Assembly (NCBI RefSeq): GCF_964019385.1
Contig: NC_088643.1
Location: 48,864,463 to 48,928,462, forward strand
Length of the DNA stretch: 64,000 nucleotides
DNA from: Sycon ciliatum
Taxonomy: Eukaryota; Porifera; Calcarea; Leucosolenida; Sycettidae
Direction of reading: 5' to 3'
The notes under the pieces are model-generated. The model searched no databases. It was not told the DNA's origin and saw nothing but the letters and a program-made list of their open reading frames with translations. A program made the translations under genes and the position numbers. This document shows positions 2,247 through 19,742 of the stretch, piece by piece. How positions within the stretch are numbered: position 1 is the first letter of the stretch; each line of letters begins with the position of its first letter.

Positions 2247-2383
2247 GAAGTTGGTTGCTCCAACGAGGAGCACACGCTTCTTGCCGAACTTGACACTGGA
2301 CTGACTCACGACTGCCATCCGGAGCACACGAGGAGCACGTCGCACCTTCCGCTCGGCAACCCTGTAAGAAAGCACCACTCCCT

Positions 2384-2429
2384 GCTCAATACACAGTGTT
2401 TCGGGGAATTCACCCCTCATCAGTTGAGC
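2384..2429 (-). ncRNA. Hammerhead ribozyme (476-bp family), inverted copy
   Basis: This is the reverse complement of the motif at 3129-3174, with the same core and stems. It lies in the inverted head of the array, so the two strands of this locus encode opposing ribozymes. Confidence 0.85.
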
Positions 2430-3128
2430 TTGAGTAGGCTGAGGAAGATTGTGCCTGAAAAGCACCACTTATATACTGCTCTCCAGGCCAAACCATCACC
2501 AGGGATACAAACTTACAGAGACGCTTTGTTTCCAGCGCGACAAACACCTCGTGAAGCCCCAGGTAGCAGCGTGAGTCAGAGTCGCTCATGGAGTTGTGCT
2601 AAACAGACGTTGAGAGCCAGTATAGCTATTCACAACGCTGTCACCTCCAACAACTAGTCGCACGTCCGCGTGAGGGACAACAATACGAACTTAGAAGTTG
2701 CGACTTCGGCGGTAATAGTCATGAAGTTGGTTGCTCCAACGAGGAGCACACGCTTCTTGCCGAACTTGACACTGGACTGACTCACGACTGCCATCCGGAG
2801 CACACGAGGAGCACGTCGCACCTTCCGCTCGGCAAACCATTATTACCGCCGAAGTCGCAACTTCTAAGTTCGTATTGTTGTCCCTCACGCGGACGTGCGA
2901 CTAGTTGTTGGAGGTGACAGCGTTGTGAATAGCTATACTGGCTCTCAACGTCTGTTTAGCACAACTCCATGAGCGACTCTGACTCACGCTGCTACCTGGG
3001 GCTTCACGAGGTGTTTGTCGCGCTGGAAACAAAGCGTCTCTGTAAGTTTGTATCCCTGGTGATGGTTTGGCCTGGAGAGCAGTATATAAGTGGTGCTTTT
3101 CAGGCACAATCTTCCTCAGCCTACTCAA

Positions 3129-3174
3129 GCTCAACTGATGAGGGGTGAATTCCCCGAAACACTGTGTATTGAGC
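3129..3174 (+). ncRNA. Hammerhead ribozyme (476-bp family)
   Basis: Stem I 3' strand GCTCAA is followed by core CTGATGA (3135-3141), stem II GGGG-TGAATT-CCCC, core GAAA (3156-3159), stem III ACAC/GTGT around a single T, cleavage-site A at 3168, and stem I 5' strand TTGAGC. Stem I pairs 6 of 6. The one-base stem III loop would be strained in a monomer. Known PLE and newt-satellite hammerheads with such stems work best as dimers in tandem transcripts, which this array would supply. Predicted cleavage is after A3168. Confidence 0.88.
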
Positions 3175-3604
3175 AGGGAGTGGTGCTTTCTTACAGGTTT
3201 GCCGAGCGGAAGGTGCGACGTGCTCCTCGTGTGCTCCGGATGGCAGTCGTGAGTCAGTCCAGTGTCAAGTTCGGCAAGAAGCGTGTGCTCCTCGTTGGAG
3301 CAACCAACTTCATGACTATTACCGCCGAAGTCGCAACTTCTAAGTTCGTATTGTTGTCCCTCACGCGGACGTGCGACTAGTTGTTGGAGGTGACAGCGTT
3401 GTGAATAGCTATACTGGCTCTCAACGTCTGTTTAGCACAACTCCATGAGCGACTCTGACTCACGCTGCTACCTGGGGCTTCACGAGGTGTTTGTCGCGCT
3501 GGAAACAAAGCGTCTCTGTAAGTTTGTATCCCTGGTGATGGTTTGGCCTGGAGAGCAGTATATAAGTGGTGCTTTTCAGGCACAATCTTCCTCAGCCTAC
3601 TCAA

Positions 3605-3650
3605 GCTCAACTGATGAGGGGTGAATTCCCCGAAACACTGTGTATTGAGC
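3605..3650 (+). ncRNA. Hammerhead ribozyme (476-bp family)
   Basis: Second plus-strand copy, 476 bp downstream, with core and all three stems unchanged. Confidence 0.88.
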
Positions 3651-4080
3651 AGGGAGTGGTGCTTTCTTACAGGTTTGCCGAGCGGAAGGTGCGACGTGCT
3701 CCTCGTGTGCTCCGGATGGCAGTCGTGAGTCAGTCCAGTGTCAAGTTCGGCAAGAAGCGTGTGCTCCTCGTTGGAGCAACCAACTTCATGACTATTACCG
3801 CCGAAGTCGCAACTTCTAAGTTCGTATTGTTGTCCCTCACGCGGACGTGCGACTAGTTGTTGGAGGTGACAGCGTTGTGAATAGCTATACTGGCTCTCAA
3901 CGTCTGTTTAGCACAACTCCATGAGCGACTCTGACTCACGCTGCTACCTGGGGCTTCACGAGGTGTTTGTCGCGCTGGAAACAAAGCGTCTCTGTAAGTT
4001 TGTATCCCTGGTGATGGTTTGGCCTGGAGAGCAGTATATAAGTGGTGCTTTTCAGGCACAATCTTCCTCAGCCTACTCAA

Positions 4081-4126
4081 GCTCAACTGATGAGGGGTGA
4101 ATTCCCCGAAACACTGTGTATTGAGC
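4081..4126 (+). ncRNA. Hammerhead ribozyme (476-bp family)
   Basis: Third plus-strand copy, unchanged. Confidence 0.88.
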
Positions 4127-4556
4127 AGGGAGTGGTGCTTTCTTACAGGTTTGCCGAGCGGAAGGTGCGACGTGCTCCTCGTGTGCTCCGGATGGCAGTC
4201 GTGAGTCAGTCCAGTGTCAAGTTCGGCAAGAAGCGTGTGCTCCTCGTTGGAGCAACCAACTTCATGACTATTACCGCCGAAGTCGCAACTTCTAAGTTCG
4301 TATTGTTGTCCCTCACGCGGACGTGCGACTAGTTGTTGGAGGTGACAGCGTTGTGAATAGCTATACTGGCTCTCAACGTCTGTTTAGCACAACTCCATGA
4401 GCGACTCTGACTCACGCTGCTACCTGGGGCTTCACGAGGTGTTTGTCGCGCTGGAAACAAAGCGTCTCTGTAAGTTTGTATCCCTGGTGATGGTTTGGCC
4501 TGGAGAGCAGTATATAAGTGGTGCTTTTCAGGCACAATCTTCCTCAGCCTACTCAA

Positions 4557-4602
4557 GCTCAACTGATGAGGGGTGAATTCCCCGAAACACTGTGTATTGA
4601 GC
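4557..4602 (+). ncRNA. Hammerhead ribozyme (476-bp family)
   Basis: Fourth plus-strand copy (CTGATGA at 4563), in the last, 3'-truncated unit before the (AAT)n tract. Confidence 0.88.
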
Positions 4603-4774
4603 AGGGAGTGGTGCTTTCTTACAGGTTTGCCGAGCGGAAGGTGCGACGTGCTCCTCGTGTGCTCCGGATGGCAGTCGTGAGTCAGTCCAGTGTCAAGTTC
4701 GGCAAGAAGCGTGTGCTCCTCGTTGGAGCAACCAACTTCATGACTATTACCGCCGAAGTCGCAACTTCTAAGTT

Positions 4775-17713: not shown

Positions 17714-17756
17714 TATTTATTTTCTCACTCACACGTCAGTACTGCACACATACTCA

Positions 17757-17875
17757 CACACACCACACACACACACACGCACACACACACACACACACAC
17801 ACACACACTCTCTCTCTCTCTCTCTCTCACACACACACACACACACACACACACACACACACACACACACACACT
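17757..17875 (+). repeat. (CA)n / (CT)n compound microsatellite
   Basis: CA repeats interrupted by a block of CT repeats near 17809-17828. Confidence 0.95.
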
Positions 17876-18111
17876 CATCACAGAATAACAACTGCATGCG
17901 GGGGACAGCCACAGCAAGGCTGGTTGCACTCTTGTTTCCAGAACACAGACAGAAAAAACATCCAGCGAAAACAACATCTCATAGACATAGAGTGACAGCG
18001 TTGTGCAAGGTGAATCATACAGAAAAGCACAGCAATCGACAGAGCATCCGCACATTCCACACCTCGCACAACTTATAACCTATGTTGTAGCAGCAATATT
18101 GAGAAATCTAT

Positions 18112-18134
18112 CAGAGAGAGAGAGAGAGAGAGAG
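18112..18134 (+). repeat. (GA)n microsatellite
   Basis: About 11 GA units. Confidence 0.9.
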
Positions 18135-18330
18135 TAACCCAGCACTCTCACTATCATGACCCGTGTGTGAAACCGTACAAAGCTCCTCATTGGGAGGGAG
18201 GATGGGAAACCAGCTTGCAAAGCAAGAAAACAAAAGATGAAGGACTGCGGCGTATCAGTACGCCCAAAACTGTCGGACCTCGGTCCCAGACCTGTTCGTT
18301 CGAAAAGAACAACATTTCTTGTTTATTTCG

Positions 18331-18882
18331 TAAAACTCAGCCAACAAGAAATGAAAACGTCTTCTTTACAACGAGAGCCCGAGAGGGCTTGAAAGCCCAG
18401 AGCCCTCGCTATGCTTTGTTTTTACCTAGGTCATCATGCGTGCTATTCGAAATGATACAGAAAGTTTTAGAAACGGCTTTGCAATACAAAAACATGTACC
18501 CGATAATCGTATTGCAGAGACGGGTCTATCATTTCGAATAACACCTACGATGACCTACTTCAAGTACATGTACATGTAGGTTTAAAACTCAGCCAACAAG
18601 AAATGAAAACGTCTTCTTTACAACGAGAGCCCGAGAGGGCTTGAAAGCCCAGAGCCCTCGCTATGCTTTGTTTTTACCTAGGTCATCATGCGTGCTATTC
18701 GAAATGATACAGAAAGTTTAAGAAACGGCTTTGCAATACAAAAACATGTACCCGATAATCGTATTGCAGAGACGGGTCTATCATTTCGAATAACACCTAC
18801 GATGACCTACTTCAAGTACATGTACATGTAGGTTTAAACAAAGCATAGCAAGGGCTCAGGGCTTTCAAACCCTCTCGTTCCT
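18331..18882 (+). repeat. 252-bp direct duplication with inverted tail
   Basis: TAAAACTCAGCCAACAAG starts copies at 18331 and 18583. A third, partial copy of about 45 bp follows in inverted orientation (18835-18880). Each unit contains an inner inverted repeat, TATTCGAAATGATA against TATCATTTCGAATA. The direct-copy-plus-inverted-tail layout resembles the PLE family elements, but no hammerhead or (AAT)n flank is present. Confidence 0.8.
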
Positions 18883-19158
18883 ATTTTTTAAGTTATGAAA
18901 AAGAAACTAGCTCATAAACATACGTAACTCAAAACTCTATCTCCCAGACAGGTACAGTCTACTAAAGAGAGCAAGTAAATATACATTATTAGTGCAATAT
19001 TTAAACACACGGCGAGGAGACAATAATTTGATAACCGCAATCAATAAAACTAGCTGAACCGACATTTGTGTACTTTATTCATGCAATGTAAAAACGGTGG
19101 AGACGATGTGCAATAAAACGATGAAAATATGAAGAAATGGTGTAGGGAAAAAAATATG

Positions 19159-19196
19159 GATTCAAACAAGTTTTCGTACAACACTCATCAGGAATC
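19159..19196 (-). ncRNA. Hammerhead ribozyme (PLE family G), left arm
   Basis: Minus-strand GATTC, CTGATGA, stem II GTGTTGTAC, GAAA, stem III AAC/GTT with a TT loop, cleavage-site U, GAATC. Confidence 0.83.
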
Positions 19197-19704
19197 GTTG
19201 TTGTACTAAAGGACACTGAAACAAAAATTGAACTATTATAGAAAATCTAAGTTAGAGAAATAACACTAAGAGCAACAACAGTGAAATTTACAAGTGTGAA
19301 TTTTAACAATCAAAGCGAGAAATGAACAAAGGAGAAAGGAAGGAAAGGAAAGACAACGTGATAACACATAACAGCAGTACATTACACCTAGAACATTAAC
19401 GGCTGTACAAACCTAATTTGTGTGTACAGAAAGATAGTATAACTGGGTTGAAATTGTTCAAGTAACGTGTCGTGTTTAGTGCGGCCAAGCTTGGCCGTTA
19501 ATGTTCTAGGTGTAATGTACTGCTGTTATGTGTTATCACGTTGTCTTTCCTTTCCTTCCTTTCTCCTTTGTTCATTTCTCGCTTTGATTGTTAAAATTCA
19601 CACTTGTAAATTTCACTGTTGTTGCTCTTAGTGTTATTTCTCTATTAAACTTAGATTTTCTATAATAGTTCAATTTTTGTTTCAGTGTCCTTTAGTACAA
19701 CGAC

Positions 19705-19742
19705 GATTCCTGATGAGTGTTGTACGAAAACTTGTTTGAATC
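19705..19742 (+). ncRNA. Hammerhead ribozyme (PLE family G), right arm
   Basis: Inverted twin of 19159-19196, with the same core and 5-bp stem I. Confidence 0.83.

Follow-up and report, generated by a model that had tools for sequence, protein, structure and literature searches.

Within a 64,000-nucleotide (nt) stretch of the Sycon ciliatum genome (contig NC_088643.1, positions 48,864,463 to 48,928,462, hereafter the window), sixteen hammerhead ribozyme motifs lie in a locus that is organised by insertion of Penelope-like elements (PLEs) into one (TAA)n microsatellite. The preliminary description of this DNA had recognised the hammerheads but missed the target, the two arms of each insertion, the tail that is present on only one of the two arms, and the occurrence of the core throughout the genome. 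From the sequence we consider it probable that this (TAA)n target has been used repeatedly by the PLE and that non-coding hammerhead families have entered by the same route by means of the PLE protein.

Eight (TAA)n tracts, 529 nt in total, divide the region from 2.2 to 15.2 kb into a chain (2222-2246, at the left border of the first element, 4774-4828, 6112-6165, 6882-7037, 14320-14442, 14804-14856, 15091-15132, and 15212-15232). All eight are of the TAA type on the + strand regardless of element orientation, with the TTA type also occurring in one; because the TAA strand is independent of element orientation, the repeat looks like the target and not like an element tail. The chain begins with a 476-nt non-coding tandem element (2247..4773, + strand), consisting of a tail-less inverted arm (2247-2838) and a main arm (2841-4773) that comprises four units and some 30 nt more and ends in a 34-nt tail. 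It continues with a 592-nt non-coding tandem element (4829..6111, - strand), of which the main arm (5886-4829) has a 31-nt tail at the left and the inverted arm (5887-6111) has none, and with D (6166..6881), a two-armed, 5'-truncated PLE remnant with a 26-nt tail at the right and none at the left. PLE A itself (7038..14319, - strand) comprises a full copy and a 5'-truncated tandem copy, the main arm (12683-7038) having a 28-nt tail at the left and the inverted arm (12684-14319) being tail-less; it is followed by 476b (14443..14803, + strand), with two arms and a 31-nt tail at the right. Further along the window, the PLE remnant G (19000..19874; two arms, 28-nt tail at the left) is flanked on either side by the 12-bp direct repeat ATTAGTGCAATA, and it interrupts D2, an older D-type two-armed insertion (18988..20078; tail at the right, none at the left), close to the left border of the latter. 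D2 is flanked by a direct repeat of 8-10 bp and contains no hammerhead by the descriptor scan described below; inspection of the flanks of a G copy at another locus (L019) also revealed a direct repeat. The four 476 units are 100% identical across the hammerhead cut site and the two copies of PLE A share 99.95% identity over 2008 nt, which points to a young set and agrees with the preliminary description of it as dense and orderly.

The seven insertions (476, 592, D, A, 476b, G, and D2) all have their arms head to head, and both outer borders are therefore element 3' ends. In each of the six families defined in the window, the 3' end without a tail exactly matches the 20 nt that precede the tail at the other border. 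Pairs of borders were counted in the window, in two upstream stretches, and in 19 of 20 fetched loci (L004 was left out, as it overlaps L003), each left border being joined to the right border that followed next within its family, irrespective of class, which would have allowed pairs with two tails or no tail to show. Every one of the 27 same-family pairs of opposite borders had one tailed and one tail-less border, including all 20 pairs outside the window. Because six of the seven window pairs define the tail probes, the rule is for these partly one of construction, and seven 476 pairs (L010, L011, L012, L017, L018, L019, and L022) share a neighbourhood and were counted as one copied event. 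Among the non-defining events, 15 of 15 were one-tailed (1 in the window and 14 elsewhere), one of them (L007, G type) resting on 79-83% identity. A 352-nt family at another locus (L020) likewise has two arms and a 42-nt tail, the tail being defined by its own pair. The tail is not bound to the long arm, as D and G show, in which the longer arm is the tail-less one. The 476, 476b, and 592 elements thus show the anatomy of PLE-mobilised non-autonomous elements, with two arms, borders at 3' ends, and one tail at fixed positions. As these non-coding arrays share their insertion form with the PLE, they were most likely moved, as was the 352-nt family, by the PLE protein acting in trans.

PLE A shows the partial tandem with a pseudo-long terminal repeat (pLTR), the inverted arm, and the single tail, and has an open reading frame (7536..10790, - strand; 1083 codons from stop to stop) without an internal stop. 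Its product has a reverse transcriptase (RT) domain and, at the C-terminal position expected for an endonuclease-containing PLE, a GIY-YIG match; it has 678 homologues, of which most of the best 120 carry a precomputed PF00078 assignment. The first 38 residues are also encoded by the 3' terminal repeat and tail, an arrangement that we liken to rotifer Penelope, where the pLTR and tail are described as holding the start of the frame (PMC3846280). The only animal-named relative among the matches listed was from the coral Chrysogorgia stellata (44% identity), and ENA contigs hold a nearly identical PLE (98%). The viral and prokaryote collections contained no relatives, and PDB, searched by sequence, contained none at E 0.01.

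Several points weigh against a PLE route for the non-coding families. The RVT_1 match of PLE A (E 8.1e-5, 22.9 bits) is under the Pfam cut-off of 29.6, and the GIY-YIG match (E 0.007, 17.1 bits) is under that of 22.6. The 476 and 592 units showed no convincing sequence kinship with PLE A, and the best motif shared between tails is weak and post hoc, being equalled in 3.8% and 7.5% of random sets. The fetched loci were chosen, in most cases for their known cores, from one listing of exact cores that covered the initial 2 Mb of a single contig, and the independence of events was judged by place and flanks. In addition, 27 edges are unpaired, being one-armed, truncated, internal 476b units, or with a partner outside the stretch, and by their flanks only some borders outside the window adjoin TAA/ATT repeats.

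For the order of events we infer a series of steps in which the PLE protein would cut both strands of AT-rich DNA, a property carried over here from another PLE, and each cut end would serve as a primer for reverse transcription, which would begin at either of two fixed positions inside the element RNA, towards its 3' side and separated by 26-34 nt. The distal start would be used on one strand, giving the tail, and the proximal start on the other, giving the tail-less border; the two cDNAs would then extend 5'-ward, across several tandem units where the template allows, and be joined head to head. Purified PLE protein has been described as cutting both strands with a preference for ATT and as starting internally at two adjacent sites matching the tail (PMC11167929), and a 31-bp tail has been described as optional on one of the inverted pLTRs (PMC3846280). 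The strict one-tail pattern bears on how the protein uses its two start sites, for which the published in vitro study reported no difference between top and bottom strand (PMC11167929). A bolder extension, which we put forward tentatively and rather doubt, is that the two cut strands are non-equivalent and that a fixed two-site reaction takes unrelated minimal-hammerhead RNAs, sometimes two at once, with canonical retrozymes using another route. The two-RNA example under that extension would be a composite insertion (14857..15090) in which a tail-less PLE A 3' arm (sense -) with a hammerhead adjoins some 30 nt from the 3' end of a 281-nt tRNA-like element (sense +), for which the plain reading is a nested one-armed insertion. 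If this extension were true, the type of hammerhead would mark which machinery moves an element.

The hammerheads were sought with two descriptors. The strict one (CTGANGA core, stem I of at least 4 bp, stem II of at least 2, stem III of at least 3 including A15.1-U16.1, and H17 not G) returned 14 sites in the 64 kb, all within 2384-19742, against a mean of 0.033 per window in 30 dinucleotide shuffles. The relaxed one (stem II down to one closing pair, stem I of at least 5) returned exactly 16, again all within 2384-19742 and none in the rest of the window; 60 shuffles averaged 0.033 sites and never gave more than 1, which rules out chance matches. All 16 are minimal type I motifs open at stem I, with the CUGANGA...GAAA core and pairing in stems I, II, and III. 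They comprise those of the 476 family (inverted arm, 2384..2429, - strand; units 1-4, 3129-3174, 3605-3650, 4081-4126, and 4557-4602, + strand), PLE A (7210-7253 and 10846-10889, - strand; inverted arm, 14133..14176, + strand), and 592 (5368..5416, - strand), the last also found by a lax Rfam match, together with those of D (6249..6288, - strand, and 6733..6772, + strand), 476b (14582-14627, + strand), the PLE A arm inside the composite (14999-15042, - strand), a 476b fragment at 15233..15648 (15449-15493, + strand), and G (19159-19196, - strand, and 19705-19742, + strand). The two D sites are weak, their stem II being degenerate and, where contiguous, limited to the closing pair. The 16 sites represent six distinct sequences in five families and, being copies, are not independent.

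Comparison with Rfam gave a mixed outcome. No hammerhead was reported at gathering score, and lax searching of 19 kb yielded a single match, to the 592 family (E 0.0076, 26.8 of 34 bits). When four short stretches were searched, RAGATH-1-hammerhead, a model in which stem II is one pair, was the top model for A, G, and D (18.6, 17.3, and, for the D site at 6733..6772, 16.6 of 56.3 bits; E 0.21-0.55), and the 476 stretch matched none of the hammerhead models of Rfam. The motifs therefore exceed chance yet fall short of curated cut-offs, and it is the shuffle test, together with five unrelated sets of pairing stems, that carries their identification. The same 16 sites in both orientations and five families had been listed in the preliminary description, as had their location in PLE-type retroelements, and both statements hold, A, D, and G lying in a PLE or PLE remnants; its proposal that covariance models would score them holds at sub-threshold level for 592, A, G, and D and fails for 476.

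The stem III designs reported earlier were also found family by family, with a loop of 1 nt in 476, none in the palindromic stems of 592 and D, and UU in A and G. As these loops are of 0-2 nt and the stems self-complementary or nearly so in all families, a monomer keeps just 2-3 stem III pairs, and dimeric action of these minimal hammerheads is plausible. With standard energies, the two-strand double hammerhead is predicted to lie below a pair of monomer hammerheads in energy for all six distinct sequences; for 476 it reaches -33.3 versus 2 x -10.8 kcal/mol and is also the predicted dimer minimum. It is not the most stable predicted dimer of 592, A, D, G, and the 476b variant, each of which has an alternative of lower predicted energy, and in the case of D and G it amounts to only -2.3 kcal/mol. 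The earlier suggestion that stem III implies action as dimers is thus supported as regards the need for a partner, whereas a dimer minimum is predicted for the main 476 sequence only. Such dimers have been proposed for minimal hammerheads of PLEs (PMC7761336). Here the partners would be two units on one tandem RNA, and the hammerheads would probably serve to cut concatemers to monomers or circles.

Cleavage leaves no footprint in the insertions at this locus. Twelve of 14 arms contain a cut site and continue through it, the other two containing none, and 0 of the 12 start at the cut, the closest, the inverted arm of 476, being 27 nt away when counted in unit coordinates; the distance from a cut downstream to the 3' border is 89-544 nt in the six families. 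The templates were therefore uncut or re-ligated, and the idea that hammerhead self-cleavage shaped the insertions is not supported. For an Anolis PLE, hammerhead mutants have been described as having no effect on insertion in vitro, and no RNA-seq ends are reported to have been found at the cut, although the hammerhead cut in vitro once protein was added (PMC11167929).

Several other explanations bear on the template, on the ribozymes, or on the route itself. One takes the template to be a retrozyme circle, in which dimeric hammerheads would cut tandem transcripts, a host ligase would circularise the products, and reverse transcription of the circles would give exact tandem units. It can coexist with the PLE route, since it concerns the template, and we regard it as a serious possibility that falls somewhat short of likely. 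The identity of the four 476 units across the cut site, the lower energy of the double hammerhead, the much more stable folding of 476 and 592 RNAs than of their shuffles (z -5.47 for 476 and -5.54 for 592), and the publication of such a cycle for canonical retrozymes (PMC7229834) all speak for it, but DNA does not separate a circle from an uncut concatemer, the Anolis mutants still inserted, and metazoan retrozyme RNAs are described as about 170-400 nt long (PMC7229834), compared with 476 and 592 nt and minimal hammerheads here. Alternatively, the hammerheads may be passengers kept by copying, the PLE doing the insertion and the motifs hardly cutting. This would suit the absence of arms that start at the cut, the degenerate stem II of D, the weak or unfavourable monomer energies of A, D, and G, and the more stable alternative folds predicted for five of the six dimers; we nevertheless find it unlikely, because cores, pairing stems, and the near-self-complementarity of stem III are retained across five unrelated families and because bare cores, with stems unchecked, exceed their control by about 44,000 genome-wide.

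With regard to the route, a long interspersed nuclear element (LINE) with an AAT-type 3' tail might move the non-coding families while the PLE merely shares the target. A LINE in the window does end in (AAT)9, at about 30920-30947, and the 281-nt tRNA-like element has a single arm and an invariant 3' end, both in its array and in two other copies. Yet each of 476, 592, and 476b has two arms and a single tail, and the independence of the TAA strand from element orientation further disfavours a LINE for 476 and 592, making this explanation improbable. It is still harder to believe that the arrays and palindromes arose by recombination or assembly error and not by retrotransposition: perfect repeats and palindromes are difficult to assemble and one composite 476 insertion occurs in seven copies, but the borders fall at family-fixed positions across distant loci, flanking direct repeats are present, and the targets in the window are (TAA)n. 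The PLE route in trans remains our preferred explanation for the non-coding families.

Hammerhead cores are abundant throughout the assembly (538,412,230 bases in 313 contigs, searched for bare cores with stems unchecked). The exact pattern CTGATGA-N6-30-GAAA occurs 49,102 times (23,832 + 25,270) and the reversed-pattern control 5,145 times (2,713 + 2,432). The window has 14 exact matches, and the locus is therefore rich, yet one of many; nine descriptor hammerheads were found in L020 and six in L008. Two further families, one of 228 nt in L021 and one of 237 nt in L022 and L018, form direct dimers in one orientation that end directly after the hammerhead, whose stem III is longer or looped, and the 237-nt dimer (L022:4840-5205, also in L018) sits between copies of ATCATCAAACTA. 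These look, by sequence, like published metazoan retrozymes and are without the two-armed one-tail signature. Ten short loci (L023-L032) added no clear canonical tandem array; eight of them had a descriptor hammerhead, and one (L031) had two of the 352-nt family type in direct repeats. The canonical contrast thus rests on two families, too few for a rule. According to a review (PMC7761336), animal retrozyme repeats lack a conserved motif from which a mobilising autonomous element could be deduced, PLEs being candidates by co-occurrence. Insertion anatomy, that is two arms, one tail, and fixed sites, could serve as a test of the helper of non-coding families, one that the minimal-hammerhead families pass and the two retrozyme-like dimer families fail.

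Much of this architecture has precedents. As far as the cited reports describe them, Penelope/Poseidon endonuclease PLEs share with the elements here RT and C-terminal GIY-YIG matches, partial tandems, an inverted arm, an optional tail of about 30 nt on one inverted pLTR, short target direct repeats, an AT-rich target, and a hammerhead in the pLTR region (PMC3846280, PMC11167929); in contrast to these, the form is here common to non-coding hammerhead families, and all pairs found had one tail. The minimal type I hammerheads described for PLEs and Terminons similarly have a short or absent helix III, tandem copies, and expected dimers (PMC7761336), the differences here being families absent from the titles listed and, probably, a sponge as host. 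Metazoan non-LTR (long terminal repeat) retrozymes also have non-coding tandem units, type I hammerheads, and high self-pairing (PMC7229834), but the 476 and 592 units are longer and two-armed, and instead of a canonical hammerhead with a stable helix III, loops of 0-2 nt were found in five families. In Adineta vaga, a non-ribosomal peptide synthetase gene, itself unrelated sequence, is described with PLE borders and likewise points to action in trans (PMC3846280), although there a single host gene is involved and here small repeated non-coding families. PLE structure, the tail, internal starts, minimal hammerheads, and their expected dimeric action are hence already published in the sources cited. 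Of the titles listed on PLEs and hammerheads, sponge hammerheads, and tRNA genes with Penelope, none reports these families, the probable route of the non-coding ones through the PLE, or the count in which every pair has one tail.

The 281-nt tRNA-like element forms an array of 11 units plus 1 nt (3092 nt) that covers positions 1-2221 of the window and 871 nt upstream (L001), with units 100% identical within the window. The unit contains a tRNA-like sequence (37.9 bits), with a CUA anticodon according to ARAGORN, and matches no Rfam ribozyme up to E 5. The copies at L007 and L020 have a single arm, are truncated on the 5' side, and share the 3' end of the array; of the two, only that of L007 lies in (TAA)n. 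L014 and L016 contain further partial matches. A two-armed PLE insertion is weakened as an explanation of this array, which starts in (TAA)n but has no inverted arm; about 5-6% of random 30-mers resemble the A and G tails as well as its tail does.

Other features of the hammerhead region include a 12-nt stretch of TTA-type microsatellite (14845-14856), where the repeat switches strand next to the end of PLE A on the left side of the composite, and a 79-nt PLE-like remnant (15133-15211) that, read by eye, is seemingly truncated within its hammerhead. A 252-nt direct dimer at 18331-18880, to which an inverted end of 49 nt is attached, resembles the two-armed form and is without a hammerhead core. 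Rfam miRNA matches around 19896-20026 were rejected, as they correspond to the palindromic arms of D2.

In the remainder of the window, LINE frames occupy 30920-33763 (- strand, with the (AAT)9 3' end), and a LINE frame with endonuclease and RT lies at 38186-40312, its best named relatives being in the calcareous sponge Sycon ciliatum. The window LINE frame is 34% identical to an NCBI entry named Sycon ciliatum and 48% identical to a EukProt entry with scpid/scgid labels, which we take to be those of Sycon, and ENA contigs hold a nearly identical LINE (97%). Two frames at 50775-51931 (- strand) have weak phage-integrase (tyrosine recombinase) matches and are perhaps Crypton- or DIRS-like. The window also contains a pure (AC)237 microsatellite (25076-25549), a 160-nt direct dimer (55018-55340), and 25 copies of a 19-nt satellite (60879-61361).

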